Assembly: GCA_947463385.1 (NCBI GenBank)
Contig: CANHSL010000001.1
Location: forward strand, 1 to 64,000
Source: Flavobacteriales bacterium
GTDB lineage: Bacteria > Bacteroidota > Bacteroidia > Flavobacteriales_D > Crocinitomicaceae
Direction of reading: 5' to 3'
Length of the DNA: 64,000 nt
Positions 14,664 to 54,705 of the stretch are shown in pieces. The notes beneath the pieces were generated by a model. That model worked only from the letters and a program-made list of their open reading frames with translations. It had not been told where the DNA came from and ran no database searches. The position numbers and the translations under genes are program-made. Each line of letters begins with the position of its first letter. Position 1 is the stretch's first letter.

Positions 14664-15350
14664 ATGAATTTTGATCGTAAAACATGGCTTTTTATCATCT
14701 TATCCGGTTTATTTGTAACGAATGCGGTTACCGCAGAATTGATAAGCAATAAGTTAATTTCAATTCCCATTCAAGGTGATTTCTTGGGGCTAAAGTTTGG
14801 TCCATTTGTTACTGTGATTGGTATTTTACCCTGGCCTTTTGTTTTTTTATTAACGGATCTTTTGAATGAGTTCTATGGGTATAAGACAGTAAGAAAACTC
14901 TCGTGGATTACCTCGGGTTTAATCTTATACTGTTTCCTCATTGTTGGTGTTTCACTTAAAATTCCTGCAGTTGAATTGCCTGGCACCTCGCTGGCTGATG
15001 ATAAATCGTATACCATGGTTTTCGGTCAGGCCCAAATGGTTATTGTTGGTAGTATTATCGCCTTTTTATTGTCGCAGCTCATGGACGCCTATTTATTTAG
15101 TTGGATTAAATCTAAAACAGGAGATAAATACATTTGGTTGCGCAGCACCGGTAGTACCGTGATTTCTCAATTGGTAGATTCCTATGTGGTCCTCTTTATT
15201 GGATTTGTCATCACCGGGAATATGAGTTTTCAAGATTATTTAGTTATTGCTCCAACAAATTATGTCTTGAAGTTGTTAATTGGAGTAGCGCTAACGCCAT
15301 TAATTTATGCAGGTCATTTCTCCGTTCGTAAATATCTATCAAAAGCTTAA
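14664..15350 (+). CDS. Queuosine precursor transporter (YhhQ/VUT family)
   Basis: A 228-residue inner-membrane protein with six to seven helices. The segments [15 protein letters not shown] near the start, [18 protein letters not shown] and [18 protein letters not shown] are conserved in the YhhQ (VUT, DUF165) family, which imports the queuosine precursors preQ0 or preQ1 for tRNA modification. It overlaps the 5' end of the methionine sulfoxide reductase gene by 44 nt in another frame. No queuosine biosynthesis genes are nearby. Confidence 0.9.
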
Positions 15351-16356
15351 GCAGCTGTTTTTATGCGCCTTGGTTTTACTCTTAAATGCCTGTTCATTTT
15401 CTCAATCTAATAACCCGATGGACTCAACTGAAGAACTGGAAAAATTCGGAGATAAGCTTCTCCCTAAAAATGTGTGTCATGTCATTAAAGAAGGAGGTAC
15501 AGAACGTCCCTTTACAGGTAAATATGTATACCATAAAGCCAATGGAAATTATTGCTGTATAGGCTGTGATGCACCCTTGTTTTCAAGTACAACGAAATTT
15601 GATTCAGGTTCCGGTTGGCCAAGTTTTTATGATGTTATTGAAAGTGGTTCAATCAAAGAAGTGAAGGATCTTTCCTACGGAATGGAGCGAATTGAAATTC
15701 GTTGTGCAAAATGCGACGCACACCTTGGACATGTATTTGAGGATGGTCCAAAACCAACAGGGTTAAGGTATTGTGTAAACTCTGTTTCCTTAGATTTTAA
15801 GCCAGTTGATGATGGGGTGGAAACGGAGGAAATCACACTTGGTGCGGGGTGCTTTTGGTGCGTAGAAACCTGTTTTAAAGAATTAGAAGGAGTCATTGAG
15901 GTTTATCCAGGATATGCCGGAGGAAAAACCCTTAATCCAACCTATGAGCAAGTTTGCAGTGGAACAACCGGTCATGCTGAAGTTGCCCGCATTGTTTTTG
16001 ATCCTAAAATAATCTCTGTAAACGAATTGCTTGAGTTGTTTTGGTGGATTCATGATCCTACGCAATTGAATCGACAAGGAAATGACATTGGAACACAATA
16101 CCGCAGTGTTATTTTTTATCACAACGAGGCCCAAAAAGAAATTGCCGCTGCATATCTAAAGAAATTAGAAAAGGAAAAAGTATGGGATAAACCTATTGTT
16201 ACAGAACTTACCGAATTGAACAATTTTTATCGTGCAGAACAGTATCACCATGATTATTTTAACCAACATCCAGAGAATCAATACTGTCAGTTTGTGGTTA
16301 AACCTAAGGTGGAAAAATTCAGAAAAATCTTTAAAGAAAAACTGAAAAGCAATTAA
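15307..16356 (+). CDS. Bifunctional methionine sulfoxide reductase, MsrB-MsrA fusion lipoprotein
   Basis: A 349-residue fusion. An N-terminal lipoprotein signal ends at Cys29 (LLLNACS). The MsrB domain (about 40-165) carries the zinc pairs CCIGC and CAKC, and the catalytic Cys is in LRYCVNS. The MsrA domain (about 175-345) has the catalytic GAGCFWC block, YAGG and a YHHDYF segment. The protein should reduce both R- and S-methionine sulfoxide in envelope proteins from a lipid anchor. The start is uncertain: the first ATG lies 44 nt inside the YhhQ gene, but no later ATG preserves the signal peptide. The reading frame meets the convergent T9SS gene, overlapping by 4 nt. Confidence 0.92.
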
Positions 16357-18932
16357 CGCACTAAGGTCACGTGACCTACTTCCATGATTTTCTCGTCGTT
16401 GTTTAAGGTCTTGAAAATTATTTTCCAAGTATAAACTCCATCAGGAGCCCTTCCGCCTTTTTTACCGGTAGAGCCGTCCCAACCAAATTTTACATTGCGC
16501 GTCTCGTAAACTAGTTCACCCCAACGGTCGAAGATATACATCACAAACTCATACGGATCATATCCTGAAAAGAATACCGGTTTGAATGCTTGGTTGTATT
16601 GATCCCCGTCCGGTGTAAACGTGTTGGGAACCCAATATATCACCTCTTCACCCGTACAATCTTCCAGTACTTCGATTAACAGGGTATCGCTTCCTTGGCA
16701 ACCGGCATTGTTTGTTCCAGTCACAATTAATTCGTTCGTTCCTACGCCTGGCATATATGCCATTCCATTGCCAACAGGTACATTCCAAACATATGAGTTA
16801 GCGCCGGTTGCGTTCAGTTGAACCGCATTTCCAAAACAAACAACTTTATCCGGACCAGCATCAATTGCAGGACTTTGTGAGATGGTAATTAAAAAATTAT
16901 CAATCCCAGGACATACCGCGGCAGGAGATGTGTAAGTCACTAAATAACTACCAATGGACGAGGTTGATAAATCAATGTTCCCAGTCACAGGGTCAATGGT
17001 TATACCTGGACCTGCGCTTACTGTACCTCCCAAGGTTCCACCAATGGTAGCAATGGGATTCGGGTCCGTTAAACAATATACTGAGTCGGGATAAGTGATT
17101 GTTGCCGGTTCAGGACCGGTATAGTTTCCAGTGAACGGATAAGTACAGCCAGCATCATCTGTAATCGTAAATCCAAACGGACCGGATGCAGTAAGGTTAT
17201 TCATAATAATATTACCGCCATTTGTGGTCGTGTTTACAGCAAATCCGGCAGTGGCGGGAATAGGGTTTGATCCAGTGAATTGTGTCCCATTCAATGAAGG
17301 TGATCCACCATTCACGGTAATTGTGGCCGTAGTATTGGCACAATTTGAAGTATACGTTGTAGTTACATCTGGTAAGTATTGAACCGCAATTGGGTCACCT
17401 AAATCGTAACATTGTAACGCAGGCAATACAACATAACTATAAATTCCATTTACAATACTATACATTGTAATCGGAACAAAATACACGGTATTGTCGGTGA
17501 ATGTTCCTGCAGGGAATGAGTTAATGAAGGATAGGTCGTTAACATCAGTTAAGTTTCCATCGTTGGTAACAACCCCAACGAAACATGGGTCATCAGGAAT
17601 ATCCAAGCCTTGTTGACCGGCTAACACAGGTGTTAAGGCAACTGTCGGTGGACAAGAATAGGCCAGCCAAACAATGCCCGGGTCATAAGGTGGTGCTGTT
17701 GGGTCATAATTCGGATCATTTGGATTCGTAGCGCCTGGAATTTCAGCCGGCACACTAAAATTATTATTTGTGGTAATGCTGAATTGATCTCCAAAGCAAA
17801 CTTTGTTGATAGCAGGCATCCCTTGAAGTGTAGTGGTAAATGTTCCCATCATTGCATTGCAATTACATTGAGGAGGAGTTGGGTAGGTCAAGGTTGCCGT
17901 ACAGCTTGGGTCAGCGGAAAATGTTGCAGTAACCACACAGGTATTGCCGTTGGCAGATCCGGTTAGACTAAAGTTAGCTGAACCGCCGAATGGGGCATTA
18001 AATACTTGCGAACCTCCACAGGAATTGGATAGTGTTAGAGTTCCTGATGCAGGGGCATTGGTGAAATTTATTGTTCCGGTAATGGTATATTGGTTGGTTG
18101 CCGGATCACAGTTTGTAATGTTTCCCGTGAAGTTGCCAAACGAACACGGGGTTGCGTTGCAAGGCGCGGGGGCCGTATAGTTTTGTGAGGTATTACAATT
18201 GGCATTAGCCGAGAAAACGGCAGTTACTAAACAGTTTGCACCATTCGCGTTTAAACCCGTTAGGTTATAATTAATTACACTACCAAAAGGAGCATTAAAT
18301 ACTTGAGGTGCACCGCCACAATTGCTGCTTATCGTTAATGTACCAGAATTTGGCGGGTTATTTATATTCAAGGTACCACTAACAGCGTAGAGGTTATTGT
18401 TGCAGGGGCCGGGTGTCGCGGTAAATCCAGTAACTCCGCATACAAAAGAACAATCAGCCGAACCAGTTCCACCCGTTTGAGAAAAACTAATCGTCCCGGG
18501 TGTGTTTGCAAAATTGGTTAAAAGTAAAATATAGAATTGACCCACTTGTGCATTGGGAATCGAGGCGGTCTCTTGTGCTGCAGGAGAATAACTACAATCT
18601 ATAGCCGAACCAACAGGGAATGTCCCACCTCCACAACCCGCTGCCAAGGAATTATAGGGTCCCCACAACGCGAAATCTACATCGATTCCAGAGCCTGCTC
18701 CCGTTTGCTGACTAATACTAAAGGTCATCGGACCGTTCTGGTCGATTTCCATAAAATACCATACAGGATTGGGTGTGGTCCCTAAGCATCCAACAGAACC
18801 TAAATCTTGTACGTTAGTACTGTTCGGAAAGGAATAATTGGTGCCAGTACAAAACGGATTCGCTTGATTGCATTGAGCCTGCGAATTAAGGAGTAATCCA
18901 AAAAGAAAAAATATTAGGAGAAACTTTTTCAA
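16353..18932 (-). CDS. Large secreted protein with T9SS type B (gliding-associated) sorting domain
   Basis: About 859 residues. A signal peptide ([19 protein letters not shown]) follows a TTG start at 18932, whose TTGA overlaps the upstream stop; an alternative TTG at 18956 adds eight residues. Early domains include a lectin-like N-terminal region. Then come two copies of an approximately 80-residue module (each containing SGTLT, CGG, VFNAPFG and a NxC-V-TA-FSA pattern, around residues 175-355), Ig-like strands with [11 protein letters not shown]-type repeats, and the C-terminal CHU_C/gliding-associated domain ([33 protein letters not shown]). This directs export by the type IX system, with likely attachment through PorV/SprF-type partners. 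The function is probably adhesive; that part is inferred. Confidence 0.85.
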
Positions 18933-19303
18933 TGCTTGGATTTTTGAGTTAACCAAAGACGCTTCTCTTCCGTAAGAAGTCGTTTATGTTTTTTTGCCCA
19001 TTTAAGCACAATCACTTTATTGTCATTGAAACTTAAATCGTTTTCATAAGGTGGAAAATCACGAGGAATTTTACCCTTTTTAAAATAGGTTTGCAGCGTT
19101 TTGATGTCCAAAATATAACGGTCTGCAGCCGGACTGCGCTCACCACTTACACCAAAAATAACAGGCACCTCCACAGGTGTTGTAGCTGCAGGATTAATTT
19201 GGTGGGTAGGCGTATTGAACCCTTTCTTTTGGTTGGTGCTTTGTGCTTCTACATTAAAAAATGTTAGTAAAACAATAGGTAGAAGTACTAGTTTGAATTT
19301 CAT
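18929..19303 (-). CDS. Exported hypothetical protein upstream of the T9SS type B gene
   Basis: A 124-residue protein with a signal peptide ending VEAQ at about residue 21. The mature part has a Pro/Thr-rich start and then an Asp/Lys-rich region without a family I recognise (LDIKTLQTYFKKGKIP, LKWAKKHKRLLTEEKRLWL). It is the first gene of a two-gene unit: its TGA overlaps the TTG start of the large T9SS type B protein, so translation is probably coupled and the two may act together at the surface. A TATATTTG box lies 16 nt upstream. Confidence 0.6.
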   Translation of the reverse strand: MKFKLVLLPIVLLTFFNVEAQSTNQKKGFNTPTHQINPAATTPVEVPVIFGVSGERSPAADRYILDIKTLQTYFKKGKIPRDFPPYENDLSFNDNKVIVLKWAKKHKRLLTEEKRLWLTQKSKH

Positions 19304-19409: not shown

Positions 19410-20396
19410 TTGGTAATTCAAGGCCTTACATATCATTTTCCTGCTCGTCAAATTGACATTACGGATGCGAGTTTCGAGAATAAACAGCAGTATGATGCGC
19501 ATCAAACCTTTGTTGGTACATCAACGCTTTATCAAGCCTCCTCTGATCTCACAGCAAGTGATTTAGCGTTTAATGCAGCAATAAAGCTGCTTGTAGATGT
19601 TGATCTCAATGACATCGATTTTTTAATTTTCTCTTCCTTGACTTTGGACTATCACGCGCCGTCCACGGCAAGTATTTTGCATAAAAAACTCGGATTAAAA
19701 GCCGCTTGTGGCGTAATGGACCTTCCCTTAGGTTGTGCCGGATTCCCTATGGCACTGATGACAGCAAATGGATTATTTAAAACCATGAACCTAAACCGTG
19801 TCTTAGTCCTATTGGGTGAAATACCAACACGTGCAGTTCATCCGGCAGATGCTTCCCTCAAGTACGTTTTTGGTGACGCAGGAGTAGCGGTGATGTTAGG
19901 TCAATCGATGGATACGCTGTATTTTGAATTTGGAAATGATGGCGATGGTTTTTCTAGCCTGAATGTGCAACGAGGTGGTGCCCGTTTCCCTATGGATATT
20001 TCCTATCTTGAGTCTAACCGAGAGTTTCCTTGGTTAAATCAATTCGGAGCATTGTCCATGGATGGTCATGGTATTTTAAAACTAAGCTTAACGCACATTC
20101 CTCAGGCTGTTTATTCACTGCTCGATAAATACGGACTCACACTGGATCAAATCGATCATGTAATTTTTCATCAAGCGAGTAATATTGTTATTGATGCGCT
20201 ACAGCGGAAACTAAACCTACCGAAAGAAAAGGTTGTTAATTATCTAGCAGATGGAGGAAATACCATCTCTTGCGGAATTCCTATAGCATGGGCTAAAGCA
20301 CAAGAAGAGATGCGCTTTAAAGCAGGAGACAGCATCATGGTTTTCGGTTTTGGTGTCGGTTTTTCTTGGTGCGGAAGTATTTTGAAGTATCATTAA
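19410..20396 (+). CDS. 3-oxoacyl-ACP synthase III-like enzyme (first of pair)
   Basis: A 328-residue thiolase-fold condensing enzyme of the KAS III/FabH type. The Cys-His-Asn triad is complete: Cys in DLPLGCAGF (near residue 110), His in VIFHQASNIV (near 251) and Asn in DGGNTISCG (near 281), with a terminal GFGVGFSWCG loop. FabH enzymes join an acyl-CoA starter to malonyl-ACP. The frame has no ATG near the natural start; TTG at 19410 is the first possible one after an in-frame stop at 19395. It heads a tight same-strand run with an ACP, a second KAS III, an SDR, a glycosyltransferase and an acetyltransferase, so it probably makes a special short acyl chain rather than serving housekeeping lipid synthesis. 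Confidence 0.88.
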   Translation: MVIQGLTYHFPARQIDITDASFENKQQYDAHQTFVGTSTLYQASSDLTASDLAFNAAIKLLVDVDLNDIDFLIFSSLTLDYHAPSTASILHKKLGLKAACGVMDLPLGCAGFPMALMTANGLFKTMNLNRVLVLLGEIPTRAVHPADASLKYVFGDAGVAVMLGQSMDTLYFEFGNDGDGFSSLNVQRGGARFPMDISYLESNREFPWLNQFGALSMDGHGILKLSLTHIPQAVYSLLDKYGLTLDQIDHVIFHQASNIVIDALQRKLNLPKEKVVNYLADGGNTISCGIPIAWAKAQEEMRFKAGDSIMVFGFGVGFSWCGSILKYH

Positions 20397-20408
20397 GTTA
20401 AGGTTAAC

Positions 20409-20416
20409 TATCTTTG
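20409..20416 (+). promoter_or_regulatory. TAnnTTTG box abutting the ACP start
   Basis: TATCTTTG ends 3 nt before the ATG at 20420, in the 23-nt gap between the first KAS III gene and the ACP gene. It matches the Bacteroidota -7 consensus and could give an internal, practically leaderless transcript of the ACP and downstream genes. It may be coincidental. Confidence 0.35.
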
Positions 20417-20419
20417 AGT

Positions 20420-20659
20420 ATGGAAATTAATGGATTTATCAACCACTTGACAGAAGAGTTTGAGGACTTAGGAGTCTTTGAATTAACACCTTCTACGGTA
20501 CTTAGGGAGATTCCCGGTTGGAACAGCATGCATATTTTATTGCTTGTTGCCATGATTGATTTTCGTTATCAAGTCTTGTTGTCCGGTGAACATTTGAAAA
20601 TGGTGGTTTCGGTAAATGATTTATTTGAATTGGTGAAACAAAAGCAAGGTGAACACTGA
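20420..20659 (+). CDS. Stand-alone acyl carrier protein
   Basis: A 79-residue four-helix carrier. The phosphopantetheine-accepting serine sits in PGWNSMHILLLVAMID (near residue 35), where the classical DSL is NSM but the flanking hydrophobic helix is intact. It lacks the strong acidity and sequence of the housekeeping AcpP, so it is a specialised carrier. I use ATG 20420; a TTG two codons earlier adds only two residues. Located between two KAS III genes and overlapping the second by 11 nt, it should carry the acyl chain these enzymes build and hand it to an acyltransferase. Confidence 0.82.
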   Translation: MEINGFINHLTEEFEDLGVFELTPSTVLREIPGWNSMHILLLVAMIDFRYQVLLSGEHLKMVVSVNDLFELVKQKQGEH

Positions 20660-21695
20660 AATTCATAATACACGGATTGATGCAGTGTATGCGGGTATAC
20701 CTGAGCATGAAGTATTTACCTCTGATTATTCTTTGTTTTCTCCCGATGAAGCGCGCTTATTTACTAAAAATACAGGCATACATTCCCGACGTGTTGCTCC
20801 AGATGGCGTTACATGTTCTGATTTGTGTTACATTGCCGCTGAAGCGCTGTTAGCCGATTTTGATGTGGCAAATGAAATCGATTTGCTCATTTTTGTTTCT
20901 CAATCTCCGGATTATTTTTTGCCTGCTACCGCAATTCTTTTGCAAGAGCGTTTGGGCTTACGCGATGCGTGCATGGCCTTTGATATCAGTTTAGGTTGCT
21001 CGGGCTATGTATATGGCTTACAAGTGGTAGGCCAGTTTATTCAATCCGGTGCCGTACGGAAAGCCTTGCTTCTTGTCGGAGATAAATCAACGATTTCTAC
21101 AGCCTATCAAGATAAGAGCACGTATCCATTATTCGGTGATGCAGGTACGGCAACCTTGCTGTCGTTTTCAGCGGATTCAAAACCCTGGTTTATAAATACT
21201 GGTTCCGATGGCTCCGGAAAAAATTCCATCATTATCGAGGGTGGACATTCACGGAATCCTTACGGGACTTATTCGGAAGAGCTTTTGGATTACGATGGCA
21301 AGATGCATTCAAAAAGCCATCTGCATCTAGAGGGGCTGGATGTGTTTAATTTTGCATTAAATCGCGTTCCGCAATCGATTCAAGAAACGCTTCAATGCTC
21401 AGGTAAATTAATGGATACTATTGATTATCTTGTGCTTCATCAGGCGAATGGATTGATTACAAAGACATTGGCGAGAAAGCTTAACGTGCCATTGGAGCGT
21501 TGTTTGACCTCTATTGAGCAGTTTGGTAATACAAGTTCAGCATCCATTCCCTTAACCCTAGTTTGTCACGGGGATGAATTGTATGGACGTAAGGACATTT
21601 CACTTATCTTGTCTGGTTTTGGTGTGGGTTTTTCCTGGGCCTCACTTTTTTTAAGCGCCGATTTCCCTAAAACTAAACTCATTACGCATGCTTAA
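20649..21695 (+). CDS. 3-oxoacyl-ACP synthase III-like enzyme (second of pair)
   Basis: A 348-residue KAS III-family enzyme, GTG start, overlapping the ACP gene by 11 nt. Catalytic residues are all present: Cys in DISLGCSGYVYGL (near residue 116), His in LVLHQANGLI (near 262) and Asn in FGNTSSASIP (near 294). It is clearly paralogous to the synthase at 19410 but well diverged from it. Two active-looking synthases on one ACP suggest either two successive condensations or a heterodimer; the sequence does not decide. The stop overlaps the SDR start by 8 nt. Confidence 0.88.
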   Translation: MNTEIHNTRIDAVYAGIPEHEVFTSDYSLFSPDEARLFTKNTGIHSRRVAPDGVTCSDLCYIAAEALLADFDVANEIDLLIFVSQSPDYFLPATAILLQERLGLRDACMAFDISLGCSGYVYGLQVVGQFIQSGAVRKALLLVGDKSTISTAYQDKSTYPLFGDAGTATLLSFSADSKPWFINTGSDGSGKNSIIIEGGHSRNPYGTYSEELLDYDGKMHSKSHLHLEGLDVFNFALNRVPQSIQETLQCSGKLMDTIDYLVLHQANGLITKTLARKLNVPLERCLTSIEQFGNTSSASIPLTLVCHGDELYGRKDISLILSGFGVGFSWASLFLSADFPKTKLITHA

Positions 21696-22416
21696 CCTAT
21701 CAGAGAAAAGGGTTTTGGTAACAGGTGTTTCTTCGGCTATTGGTGCCGAAATCGCCCAAACGATTCTTAAACTGGGAGGTACAGTGGTTGGGACCTATCG
21801 GTCTTCGGATTCTGTCCTTTTGGAGCAGCTTTCAACTCAAGGTGGCTTTGAATCTTTTCACTGGGATGTTTTTACTGAACCCCATTTTCTTGAAGGACAG
21901 CAAGCTTTTGACGCTTGGGTGCATTGTATTGGTGTCATTCATCCGCAGCCCATCAAATATTTAAACAAGGAAGGAAGTGAAGCGCTTTTTCAAGTGAATT
22001 ATTTCTCTGCAACGCGCATGGCCTCTTTGTTAATGAAGCAAAATTTACTTCTACCAAAGGCTTCAATTGTGTTTTTATCTTCTGTTTCAAGCCAGTATCC
22101 GTATCGTGGAGGAGCCGCCTATGCATCTTCAAAAGCAGCCTTAGAAACGTTTGCTAAAGCACTGGCGTTGGAGTTGAGTACGAAGCAAATCCGTGTAAAT
22201 ACCTTGGTTTGTGGATTGGTGAGGTCGCCAATGTTTGATGCCTCAAAAGCCCCATATTCCGCTGCTGAAATTGAGTCCATGGAGGCTAGGTATCCATTGG
22301 GCATCGGAACTCCATCAGATGTAGCGAAACCTTGTGCCTTTTTATTGAGTGATTATGCCGCTTGGATTTCTGGTGCGCAACTGCTGCTTGATGGCGGGTT
22401 AATGTTGAATGTGTAA
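21688..22416 (+). CDS. SDR oxidoreductase, likely 3-oxoacyl-ACP reductase
   Basis: A 242-residue short-chain dehydrogenase. The NAD(P) motif is TGVSSAIGAEI at the N-terminus. The catalytic Ser is in FLSSVSS, the Tyr and Lys are in YASSKAAL, and the C-terminus has the FabG-like WISGAQLLLDGG block. In this setting it would reduce a 3-oxoacyl-ACP to the 3-hydroxy form. It overlaps the preceding KAS III by 8 nt and is followed after 9 nt by the glycosyltransferase. The substrate is inferred from neighbours only. Confidence 0.85.
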   Translation: MLNLSEKRVLVTGVSSAIGAEIAQTILKLGGTVVGTYRSSDSVLLEQLSTQGGFESFHWDVFTEPHFLEGQQAFDAWVHCIGVIHPQPIKYLNKEGSEALFQVNYFSATRMASLLMKQNLLLPKASIVFLSSVSSQYPYRGGAAYASSKAALETFAKALALELSTKQIRVNTLVCGLVRSPMFDASKAPYSAAEIESMEARYPLGIGTPSDVAKPCAFLLSDYAAWISGAQLLLDGGLMLNV

Positions 22417-22425
22417 TTTTAACGA

Positions 22426-23325
22426 ATGAACGATCAAGTTACCGTTGTTATACCAACCTTTAATAATTCCAAGGGAGCGATTGATTTAGTACAGTTACTA
22501 GCGGTTCATTTCCCGGCCTTTCATCTAATTGTTGTTGATGATGGGAGTGAGGTATCCCACTGGGAGCAACTTAAATCTTTTTCTTCCTTTCCTAGGCTTA
22601 AAAAAATACGGTTAGCAAAGAATTTTGGACAACATGCAGCCTTGTATGCAGGCATGTCACAGGTGAAGACAGCCTACGTGATAACCATGGATGATGACCA
22701 TCAGGATTTAGTAACACATATTCCTGCCTTGTTGGCGGCCACATCAAGTGGAAGTCATGCTGTAATTTATGGTCTATTTTCGGTCCGTCGCACGTGGCTT
22801 AGGTCAACATTGACTACCGCTTATCGGTTGTTTTCTGGGATGGTGGGTGCGGGGCATGGCAAGGGAAGTGGCTTTCGTTTGTTGCGAAATGATTTGGTTC
22901 AGTCCCTGTGTAAAGATGCCGGTGGAGTTCAGTTCTTGGATGAACGCATTCGGTGGTTTACGGATGAAATTGCTTTTGTATCTCTTAAGGTCCATGTAGG
23001 GTCTTTTAAGTCTAGATATTCACTCGGTAGATTACTCAGTTTAAGCATTGGAAAGTCCTTTTATGCCACCGATTTTCCATTGAGATTAATGGCAGTTTTT
23101 GGTGCATTGATGGCCTTGGTTAACCTCGGCATAGGAACGTTTTTTTTATATAAAAAATTAATAGATAAGATTGAGGTACCGGGGTTTACTTCCTTGATTG
23201 TTAGCGTATTGTTTTCTACCGGTCTATTGCTTTTTGGTGTAGGGATTCTTGCTACGTATTTGCGTCAAATTCTGCTTCGGGTGAATCACGCTCCTACATA
23301 TCACATTCAAGAGATTTCAGAATGA
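22426..23325 (+). CDS. GT2 glycosyltransferase, membrane-anchored (ArnC/GtrB-like)
   Basis: A 299-residue enzyme with a GT-A catalytic domain at the N-terminus (VVIPTFNNSKGAI, LIVVDDGSE, and the metal-binding MDDDHQD near residue 88), then two transmembrane helices near residues 220-245 and 255-285. This layout is that of polyprenyl-phosphate sugar transferases such as ArnC and GtrB, which load one sugar onto undecaprenyl phosphate at the inner membrane. The ATGA overlap with the GNAT gene and the upstream acyl-ACP genes suggest that the sugar is acylated. The sugar identity is unknown. Confidence 0.87.
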   Translation: MNDQVTVVIPTFNNSKGAIDLVQLLAVHFPAFHLIVVDDGSEVSHWEQLKSFSSFPRLKKIRLAKNFGQHAALYAGMSQVKTAYVITMDDDHQDLVTHIPALLAATSSGSHAVIYGLFSVRRTWLRSTLTTAYRLFSGMVGAGHGKGSGFRLLRNDLVQSLCKDAGGVQFLDERIRWFTDEIAFVSLKVHVGSFKSRYSLGRLLSLSIGKSFYATDFPLRLMAVFGALMALVNLGIGTFFLYKKLIDKIEVPGFTSLIVSVLFSTGLLLFGVGILATYLRQILLRVNHAPTYHIQEISE

Positions 23326-23924
23326 TACTAACTGGATTTGGAGTTGTCTTGAAGCGAATTACCAAGGAAGATATTGAGCAAATTAGGCGCTGGAGAAATC
23401 AAGATTTCGTAAGGGATCAAATGTTTCACACGGAATTGATAACAGAAACACAACAGGATGCTTGGTTTGAATCTGTAAACAACTGCTTTAATTATTACTT
23501 TGTAATTCATGTGGATGAATTGCCAATTGGAGTCATTTATGCAAAACATGTGAACCCAAAAACCTTAGCGGGGGAGGGTGGAATTTTTATCGGAGAACAC
23601 GCTTTTTTAACTTCTGATTCACCGGCGAGAGCCTCCATGCTTCTTTTACATTTCTGCTTTAATAAATTGATGTTAAGTAGTTCATTAATAAGAATTAAAG
23701 AAGGTAATAAGGTGGCCATTCGCTACAACGAACTTCTAGGGTATGTGGTTCAACAACGGGCCGGAGAAGAAATATTACTATGCCTAACGAAGGAGGCTTT
23801 TCAGCGTTCAATGATGGTATCACGCGTCCTGCGTTTATTGGATATCGAGTCAATTCAATTAACGGGCATGCCTTCTGAAAATAATCTGGAGCAACTCAAT
23901 GCCTTGCTGGAATCAAATCGGTAA
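23322..23924 (+). CDS. GNAT-family N-acyltransferase (PseH/RimJ-like)
   Basis: A 200-residue GNAT protein. The opening KRITKEDIEQIRRWRNQDFVR and QQDAWFESV are typical of the RimJ/PseH branch, which acylates amino groups of proteins or amino sugars, and the acyl-CoA-binding loop region lies around residues 85-125. It overlaps the glycosyltransferase by 4 nt. I infer that it N-acylates the sugar handled by that enzyme, possibly taking the acyl group from the cluster's ACP. The acceptor is not proven. The last 12 nt overlap the convergent hydroxylase gene. Confidence 0.8.
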   Translation: MILTGFGVVLKRITKEDIEQIRRWRNQDFVRDQMFHTELITETQQDAWFESVNNCFNYYFVIHVDELPIGVIYAKHVNPKTLAGEGGIFIGEHAFLTSDSPARASMLLLHFCFNKLMLSSSLIRIKEGNKVAIRYNELLGYVVQQRAGEEILLCLTKEAFQRSMMVSRVLRLLDIESIQLTGMPSENNLEQLNALLESNR

Positions 23925-24572
23925 ACAGCCCTTTTCAAAAGCCTCATTCCATGCTGAGTGCGAAGCCATTGAGAGTAAAAAAGGGTCATCCAAATGTGCT
24001 ATTTTATGTCGACTGATTTCATGAGCAGTATAGCCCCATAAGGGGTTTGGAATATCAAACATTAATACAATTCGATCTTCGCTGCTTTGATTCCAAGCGC
24101 TGTGTTCATAGGAATCATCAAAAATGATCATCTTACCGGGTTGATGATATTCTGTTTGGTTTCCAACCCGAATAGCGCATGCGTTTCCTTGTGGAACGAT
24201 TAAGGGAAGGTGTCCTCTCAAGATCATCCGTGAATACCCCCGGTGGGGCATAATGGTCGTGTTGGGCTTCATTCGTGAAAAGTCACAGGAAATGAGCTCG
24301 GGTATTGAGTTTATGAGCGCTGCTGTCCTTGGACAAAGGGCTTGATTGTTAAGGTGACTCATTCCGAAAAACTTGAATGTAAACACATCCCATGCTGCAT
24401 CCTCTTCACTTTGTACATACTGCGGAAACGTCTTAAGCCACGATTTAGGCGTGTTTAATGCAAGTAAATCAGTGAGTTCTTTTGATATTAGGTCGAAGGA
24501 ATCCGTTAATGCGTTAAGAAATTCGAACGTTTTGCTGTCATAAAAAAAGCTTGGATTCTTTGGGTCCTTCAT
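23913..24572 (-). CDS. Aspartyl/asparaginyl beta-hydroxylase-like dioxygenase
   Basis: About 219 residues of the Asp/Asn beta-hydroxylase (LpxO-like) branch of 2-oxoglutarate/Fe(II) oxygenases. The first metal His is in TIMPHRGYSR (near residue 117), the RGHLPL segment binds 2-oxoglutarate, and the second His is in FDDSYEHSAWN (near 163), followed by RIVLMFDI. Relatives hydroxylate Asp residues of proteins or the 2-position of lipid A acyl chains. Next to an acyl-chain cluster, hydroxylation of an acyl group is plausible but not shown. I use ATG 24572, preceded by the near-consensus box TATCTTTA; a TTG at 24602 would add ten residues. Confidence 0.85.
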   Translation of the reverse strand: MKDPKNPSFFYDSKTFEFLNALTDSFDLISKELTDLLALNTPKSWLKTFPQYVQSEEDAAWDVFTFKFFGMSHLNNQALCPRTAALINSIPELISCDFSRMKPNTTIMPHRGYSRMILRGHLPLIVPQGNACAIRVGNQTEYHQPGKMIIFDDSYEHSAWNQSSEDRIVLMFDIPNPLWGYTAHEISRHKIAHLDDPFLLSMASHSAWNEAFEKGCLPI

Positions 24573-24612
24573 CGCGATAAAGATAGAATTTTTTTCAGTC
24601 AACTTCTCGTTG

Positions 24613-54160: not shown

Positions 54161-54691
54161 TTATTGATTGAATGTAGCGCGAATGGCCTGAAGCAATTCA
54201 ACCTTGCACTGTTCAAAAGATAGGAATTCTGTATTTATTTTCAACCATGGATTAATGGGTTCTTCATACGGCTGATGTATCCCCGTGAAATTTCCCTCGT
54301 TCTGTTTAATGCTTTTGGCATAAAGCTGCTTGACATCACGTTGTTTACAGCCTTCAATAGAGCAGTCCACATGAATTATAAAGCATCGATTGATTCCAAT
54401 AATGTGCTGCACCATGGTTTGAATTTCATGGGTGGGTGAAATAAGGGCAGCCATTACATGGATTCCTTGTTCGTTTAATATCCTAGCTATATTTGCAGCT
54501 CTTCGATTTTGTTCTGTTCGATCTTCCTCGGTGAATCCAAGGTCCTTTGAGATGGTATTTCTCAATTCATCCCCATCCAAAATAACGACGTTTTTTCCTT
54601 CCCTTAGAAATTCCTCAGCTAAGGACTTGGATAGGGTTGTTTTTCCCGCGCCTGATAATCCGGTAAACCAAAAGGTGTGTCCTGTTTGCAT
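54161..54691 (-). CDS. cysC: Adenylylsulfate kinase
   Basis: About 176 residues. The P-loop is FTGLSGAGKTTLSKSL, the APS-binding segments are ILDGDELR, FTEEDRTEQNRRAANIA and FTGIHQPYEEP. It phosphorylates adenylylsulfate to PAPS. No ATP sulfurylase (cysD/cysN or sat) gene lies nearby, so it depends on genes elsewhere, or serves sulfation rather than assimilation. I use ATG 54691; a TTG three codons earlier overlaps the TACCTTTG promoter box. Confidence 0.93.
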   Translation of the reverse strand: MQTGHTFWFTGLSGAGKTTLSKSLAEEFLREGKNVVILDGDELRNTISKDLGFTEEDRTEQNRRAANIARILNEQGIHVMAALISPTHEIQTMVQHIIGINRCFIIHVDCSIEGCKQRDVKQLYAKSIKQNEGNFTGIHQPYEEPINPWLKINTEFLSFEQCKVELLQAIRATFNQ

Positions 54692-54697
54692 CTTAAT

Positions 54698-54705
54698 CAA
54701 AGGTA
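54698..54705 (-). promoter_or_regulatory. TAnnTTTG promoter box for cysC run
   Basis: TACCTTTG on the minus strand ends 6 nt before ATG 54691; exact -7 consensus, short leader. Confidence 0.5.

Follow-up and report, generated by a model that had tools for sequence, protein, structure and literature searches.

We asked whether a compact run of six genes in Flavobacteriales bacterium (Crocinitomicaceae; GenBank assembly GCA_947463385.1) forms a single system, and what that system might make. The run occupies positions 19410–23924 of the window, by which we mean the whole 64,000-nucleotide stretch analysed (contig CANHSL010000001.1, positions 1 to 64,000); the source genome, G000, is 2.6 Mb in 171 contigs and 99% complete. 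An initial annotation, made from the sequence of the window, had proposed that these genes place a short 3-hydroxyacyl chain on an amino sugar linked to undecaprenyl phosphate. Our analysis indicated that they probably represent a conserved and apparently undescribed Bacteroidota system for hydroxyacyl amino-sugar surface glycosylation. The six genes and a seventh that adjoins them are:

19410..20396, plus strand: KSa, a ketosynthase of the 3-ketoacyl-ACP synthase III (KAS III) type, 328 aa, TTG start (ACP_syn_III, ACP_syn_III_C)
20420..20659, plus strand: a dedicated acyl carrier protein (ACP), ATG start; alternative mechanical TTG start at 20414
20649..21695, plus strand: KSb, a second KAS III-type ketosynthase, 348 aa, GTG start (ACP_syn_III, ACP_syn_III_C)
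21688..22416, plus strand: SDR, a FabG-like 3-oxoacyl reductase of the short-chain dehydrogenase family (adh_short)
22426..23325, plus strand: GT2, a glycosyltransferase apparently of the GtrB/ArnC polyprenyl-phosphate-sugar synthase type (Glycos_transf_2)
23322..23924, plus strand: GNAT, an FdhC/PseH-like protein of the amino-sugar N-acyltransferase type (Acetyltransf_3)
23913..24602, minus strand: an Fe(II)/2-oxoglutarate hydroxylase of the Asp_Arg_Hydrox family (PF05118), LpxO/OlsC/AspH-like, convergent with the GNAT gene

The six open reading frames (ORFs) are intact and contiguous on one strand, at the coordinates originally reported, with successive spacings of +23 (from the ATG of the ACP), −11, −8, +9 and −4 nt; the originally stated limit of 23 nt on overlaps and gaps thus holds. 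G+C content is alike in the cluster (0.417) and the window (0.402). A scan of 84,980 species genomes recovered 80 loci via the GNAT, and single loci are given below by L numbers; most loci come from metagenome assemblies, whose taxon titles can be wrong. The exact order KSa-ACP-KSb-SDR-GT2-GNAT was found in 41 of the 80, across many Bacteroidota, and GT2 was adjacent to GNAT in 75. GNAT alone detected 41 of 120 relatives. Within the genus the six-gene block, the convergent hydroxylase gene and the neighbours were kept at about 38–93% identity, and other families had the same block in different surroundings (L047, L053, L068–L072, L116–L119). Pairwise distances of the six proteins correlated across 45 loci (r 0.66–0.84; maximum of 300 permutations, 0.28). 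Some members of the genus have the operon in two parts, KSa-ACP-KSb-SDR and GT2-GNAT-hydroxylase, located apart from each other, and retain both. Loss of the order in related genomes had been named beforehand as a finding that would count against the system; the order was conserved, and we concluded that the recurrence of the six genes is beyond chance. The hydroxylase gene, present together with KSb, GT2 and GNAT in 43 loci, is conserved with the other genes and belongs to the system, which therefore does not end at 23924 as first annotated.

Each catalytic set that was checked proved to be conserved. At least 95% of homologues kept C109/H254/N284 of KSa, C117/H264/N294 of KSb, the SDR tetrad N104/S131/Y145/K149 and the GT2 aspartates D39/D89/D91. 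Both ketosynthases combine the Cys-His-Asn triad with the ACP_syn_III domains of KAS III enzymes, in agreement with the two complete active sites proposed originally. The ACP had no match in Pfam or NCBIfam; its W-x-S motif, which holds the phosphopantetheine serine (S38, numbered from the TTG at 20414), was kept in at least 95% of 73 homologues, consistent with the stand-alone carrier that had been suggested. The best NCBIfam model for GT2 was ArnC (E 1e-21), yet the score fell far below the family cut-off. Its best PDB matches, GtrB (5EKP) and ArnC (9HWJ), ran across the full length, so that the likeness takes in the two C-terminal hydrophobic helices (residues 219–237 and 257–275), predicted to lie in the membrane. 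GT2 thus appears to be a polyprenyl-phosphate-sugar synthase closest to GtrB/ArnC, as annotated.

The description of the GNAT as PseH-like was also borne out, in that its nearest relatives were FdhC by sequence (best PDB match 5KTA) and PseH by fold. Its predicted structure (predicted local distance difference test score, pLDDT, 94) matched PseH 4RI1 best and also FdhC 5KTC, a structure solved with a 3-hydroxybutanoylamino sugar product. The PDB matches comprised sugar and polyamine enzymes, with sugar N-acyltransferases ranking top, and the protein carries a conserved C-terminal extension. Against the NCBIfam PseH model it scored 53.7 bits, short of the cut-off of 93.1, and we rejected the pseudaminic acid pathway on this ground. 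The hydroxylase matched PF05118 and scored best against OlsC (113 bits, equivalog cut-off 450) and LpxO (95 bits, cut-off 500), reaching neither cut-off. Its conserved H120, R129, H131, H167 and R177, as mapped on AspH, are histidines and arginines that its family would be expected to have.

Further genes accompany the block. In many genomes one to four PF05118 hydroxylase genes, two or three Sulfotransfer_3 genes and a gene for a 610–880 aa membrane protein lie beside it. This membrane protein had no match under a strict Pfam search. The family matched PMT_2 (the protein of our genome above the cut-off) and tetratricopeptide repeat (TPR) models, and 13 of 34 members matched TMTC_DUF1736 at E values up to 0.1, our own protein not being among them. 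It shares with human TMTCs a DD motif (in loop 1), a YRP and an ER motif, several of them only partly kept, and ends in a TPR tail; we refer to it as a TMTC-like GT-C glycosyltransferase. In our genome the gene is found on contig C24, with three sulfotransferase genes immediately after it; at the cluster locus itself it stands in L172, L173, L175–L177, L187, L190, L196, L200 and others. Among 121 genomes, 34 had both GNAT and the TMTC-like gene, 1 had GNAT alone, 2 had the TMTC-like gene alone and 84 had neither (Fisher p = 1.7e-26, a value inflated by relatedness, although presence was patchy inside one genus). Judged by sequence, then, the GT-C partner that a three-component polyprenyl-phosphate-sugar system calls for appears to be present. 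The initial inventory was right as to the six genes, and missed the adjacent hydroxylase, the TMTC-like GT-C and the sulfotransferase partners.

Two other sets of neighbours were seen in relatives. An MBOAT-like O-acyltransferase gene and a conserved DltD/AlgJ-like partner (no Pfam match for the one checked) adjoin the system in L173–L175, L182, L187, L190, L191, L196, L206 and L221, and this pair may carry out periplasmic O-acylation. In L192, L194, L200, L203, L211, L180, L186 and L188 the system adjoins AMP-ligase and acyl-CoA dehydrogenase genes, in some with a tryptophan-halogenase-like gene, possibly a module that feeds a halogenated aryl or pyrrole starter to the ketosynthases.

Evidence on the sugar came chiefly from relatives. 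The statement that the cluster holds no other sugar genes is true of our own locus and fails for relatives, in which WecE and RmlA/RmlB genes lie nearby. About a dozen loci have a WecE-type aminotransferase gene next to the system, among them those of Aequorivita viscosa (L201) and Paenibacillus psychroresistens (L235); three of these neighbouring WecE proteins and the one in L266 were checked against NCBIfam and scored above the cut-off. WecE occurred in 17 of 28 system carriers of the genus and in 3 of 45 other members, an enrichment with Fisher p = 7e-7. L235 also has RmlA-like, RmlB and ArnF-like genes, and ArnE/F-like EamA genes occur in L222, L223, L235 and L238. In L266 the genes for ACP, GNAT, KSb, SDR, KSa and WecE are embedded in a polysaccharide locus that also has RmlA and a pair of ABC-exporter-like genes. 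These loci support an amino-sugar substrate in general.

From gene content, conserved order, catalytic residues, family assignments and the co-occurrence of the TMTC-like gene, we infer a scheme that extends to reaction order, acyl length, sugar, flippase, acceptor and the substrates of the hydroxylase and sulfotransferases. KSa and KSb would lengthen a small acyl starter carried by the dedicated ACP, and reduction of the keto group or groups by the SDR would yield a short acyl-ACP with a 3-hydroxy or 3,5-dihydroxy pattern; a pair of KAS III enzymes with a single reductase would fit one or two rounds of extension. With this acyl group the GNAT would then N-acylate a nucleotide-activated amino sugar, which the GtrB/ArnC-like GT2 would load onto undecaprenyl phosphate. 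The 2-oxoglutarate hydroxylase and the sulfotransferases may add further hydroxyl and sulfate groups before a flippase turns the lipid-linked sugar to the periplasm, where the TMTC-like GT-C would hand it to a surface acceptor. We consider it rather probable that the cluster is the cytoplasmic half of such a polyprenyl-phosphate-dependent glycosylation system using a hydroxyacylated amino sugar. The original idea of a short 3-hydroxyacyl chain on an undecaprenyl-phosphate-linked amino sugar is well supported by the likeness of GNAT to FdhC and PseH and of GT2 to GtrB and ArnC; the WecE, RmlA/RmlB and ArnE/F-like genes of relatives and a precedent for the KAS-ACP-KAS-reductase set (PMC6519341) back it further. 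A broader version, general protein O-glycosylation in Bacteroidota in which exported surface proteins, for instance the secreted neighbour described below, would receive a sulfated, polyhydroxyacylated amino sugar from the TMTC-like enzyme, seems to us rather unlikely.

Several observations weigh against the polyprenyl-linked scheme. Our genome has no WecE-like gene (best match 30% identity) and no RmlB above the family cut-off, and there is no flippase gene inside the cluster at our locus. Other DegT aminotransferases are present; the PseC-like one that we tested, on contig C48, is present in almost every genus member whether or not the system is there, and thus is not a specific partner. A whole-protein fold search with the model of the TMTC-like protein was dominated by TPR repeats, its GT-C part matching PglB weakly, and a profile search against the PDB gave TPR proteins as well. 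Across the phylum the TMTC-like gene was found in 24 of 396 genomes and GNAT in 5, so that the link between the two is valid in the order and not everywhere. Finally, KSa and SDR are not essential to the core, because L120–L129 have a simpler version that lacks both. As candidates for the sugar enzyme, WecE was rejected as universal, being absent from our genome despite its linkage in relatives, and the C48 aminotransferase was rejected for want of any tie to system presence in the genus. The simpler ACP-KSb-GT2-GNAT operon was seen within the same family in L120–L129, L078 and L079; in L122 and L123 it adjoins WecE-like genes and arrays of PhyH dioxygenase genes, and L122 has a phosphopantetheinyl transferase gene as well.

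Other explanations account for parts of these data. Proteins of the KAS III, ACP and SDR families are widespread in fatty acid synthesis, and the run could be a chance series of duplicated genes for it that do not act together. The KAS III C-terminal domain was matched by three proteins of the genome, namely KSa, KSb and one on contig C60; the last is the housekeeping FabH, within a plsX-fabH-accBC operon. Because the genome keeps its own fabH elsewhere and the gene order is conserved, the cluster genes are not housekeeping duplicates, and we rejected duplication as their origin. The order is kept between families and orders and the proteins diverge in a correlated manner; the conserved order already refutes a chance run, whose probability we regard as negligible.

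The wfpC-D-E-F genes of Flavobacterium psychrophilum stand in the same order of KAS, ACP, KAS and reductase (PMC6519341), which raises the possibility of an O-antigen R-group cassette as in that species, with the acylated sugar nucleotide passing straight into repeat units and GT2 acting as an ordinary cytoplasmic transferase. L266, with its acyl genes, GNAT and WecE inside a polysaccharide locus, fits such a cassette, but in this O-antigen-like case the cassette lacks a GT2 of the GtrB/ArnC type. The GT2 of the window aligns over its full length with GtrB and ArnC, membrane helices included, the window cluster and most loci have no flanking polysaccharide genes, and the system is linked with a TMTC-like GT-C; we judge the cassette unlikely. 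The scores of the hydroxylase, highest against OlsC and LpxO, would suit a small-molecule or membrane-lipid pathway in which the GNAT would have an amino acid or amino lipid as its substrate, the OlsC-like hydroxylase would modify the acylated product and GT2 would add a sugar to the lipid, as would the AMP-ligase, acyl-CoA dehydrogenase and halogenase-like genes of some relatives, which are typical of natural-product clusters. Set against this are the GNAT matches, sugar N-acyltransferases first among sugar and polyamine enzymes, and the WecE and ArnE/F-like genes that adjoin the system in diverse genomes, and we hold a lipid pathway to be very unlikely.

Three further features of the window may bear on the proposed polyprenyl-linked glycosylation system:

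16353..18956, minus strand: a secreted protein with a CHU_C type IX secretion sorting domain
18929..19303, minus strand: a small secreted-looking protein, 124 aa, divergent to KSa
54161..54700, minus strand: an adenylylsulfate (APS) kinase, unlinked to the cluster

The first two (16353–19303) stand as a pair beside the cluster in two families (also L068, L116, L117, L187 and L237), and the CHU_C protein is far more conserved in the genus than the cluster genes. This protein, a neighbour found with the cluster again in a second family, is a possible, speculative glycan acceptor. The APS kinase is the only one found in the genome; 3'-phosphoadenylylsulfate (PAPS) can therefore be made, and the kinase could supply it to the sulfotransferases. 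A methionine sulfoxide reductase-like ORF at 15307–16356 is an apparent MsrB-MsrA fusion and corresponds to two ORFs in several relatives.

Taken together, the genes outline a system that is coherent and scattered widely over Bacteroidota, with a small ketosynthase line of its own that would feed a polyprenyl-linked sugar. They tie it to bacterial TMTC-like glycosyltransferases, for whose donors and acceptors we found no record, and offer concrete candidate genes for an acylated, possibly sulfated surface glycan, with Aequorivita viscosa as a cultured carrier. The initial annotation had called the cluster the best candidate for an undescribed system and its product not predictable from known pathways. 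In the literature searched we found no description of this module combined with TMTC-like, hydroxylase and sulfotransferase genes; the KAS-ACP-KAS-reductase module itself has a precedent in F. psychrophilum, and because the acyl module is close to the wfpC-F set, "not predictable" was too strong.

In F. psychrophilum, wfpC-F were assigned by their authors to a 3,5-dihydroxyhexanoyl group, which nuclear magnetic resonance placed in amide linkage on Qui2NAc4N of the O-polysaccharide (PMC6519341). The likeness of this R1-group set to the cluster is one of gene order. There, a PglD-like enzyme encoded in an O-antigen locus transfers the acyl group, whereas the cluster has a GNAT with no O-antigen genes around it and, relative to wfpC-G, adds the GtrB/ArnC-like GT2, the hydroxylase and a distant TMTC/sulfotransferase locus. 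The vioA/B/S/R/acp island of Pseudomonas syringae, which provides 3-hydroxybutanoyl on the 4-amino-4,6-dideoxy sugar (viosamine) of flagellin and in which mutation showed vioR to be required (PMC3927599), likewise comprises KAS III, ACP, reductase and acyltransferase. It differs in having one KAS III, cytoplasmic transfer by VioT and no polyprenyl carrier, hydroxylase or sulfotransferase; its sugar 4-aminotransferase has no counterpart within our cluster and does have one beside relatives. FdhC (5KTA/5KTC; PMC4869667) shares with the cluster's protein the GNAT fold and the acylation of an amino sugar nucleotide. It acts, however, on dTDP-Fuc3N in O-antigen synthesis, with a coenzyme A (CoA) donor and no dedicated ACP; 5KTC contains the CoA product.

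Human TMTC1-4 are O-mannosyltransferases with DD, YRP and ER motifs (PMC7801869), and the bacterial protein resembles them in these motifs, several of which are only partly kept, and in its PMT-type membrane part followed by TPRs. Known three-component polyprenyl-phosphate-sugar systems, GtrB/GtrA/GT-C and ArnC/ArnEF/ArnT (PMC11127046), resemble the present one in their pairing of a GtrB/ArnC-type synthase with a GT-C partner and, in distant relatives, in the ArnE/F-like genes beside the system. In contrast to these, the sugar handled here would bear a dedicated hydroxyacyl group, the GT-C partner is of the TMTC-like, TPR-bearing type, and a hydroxylase and sulfotransferases are added.

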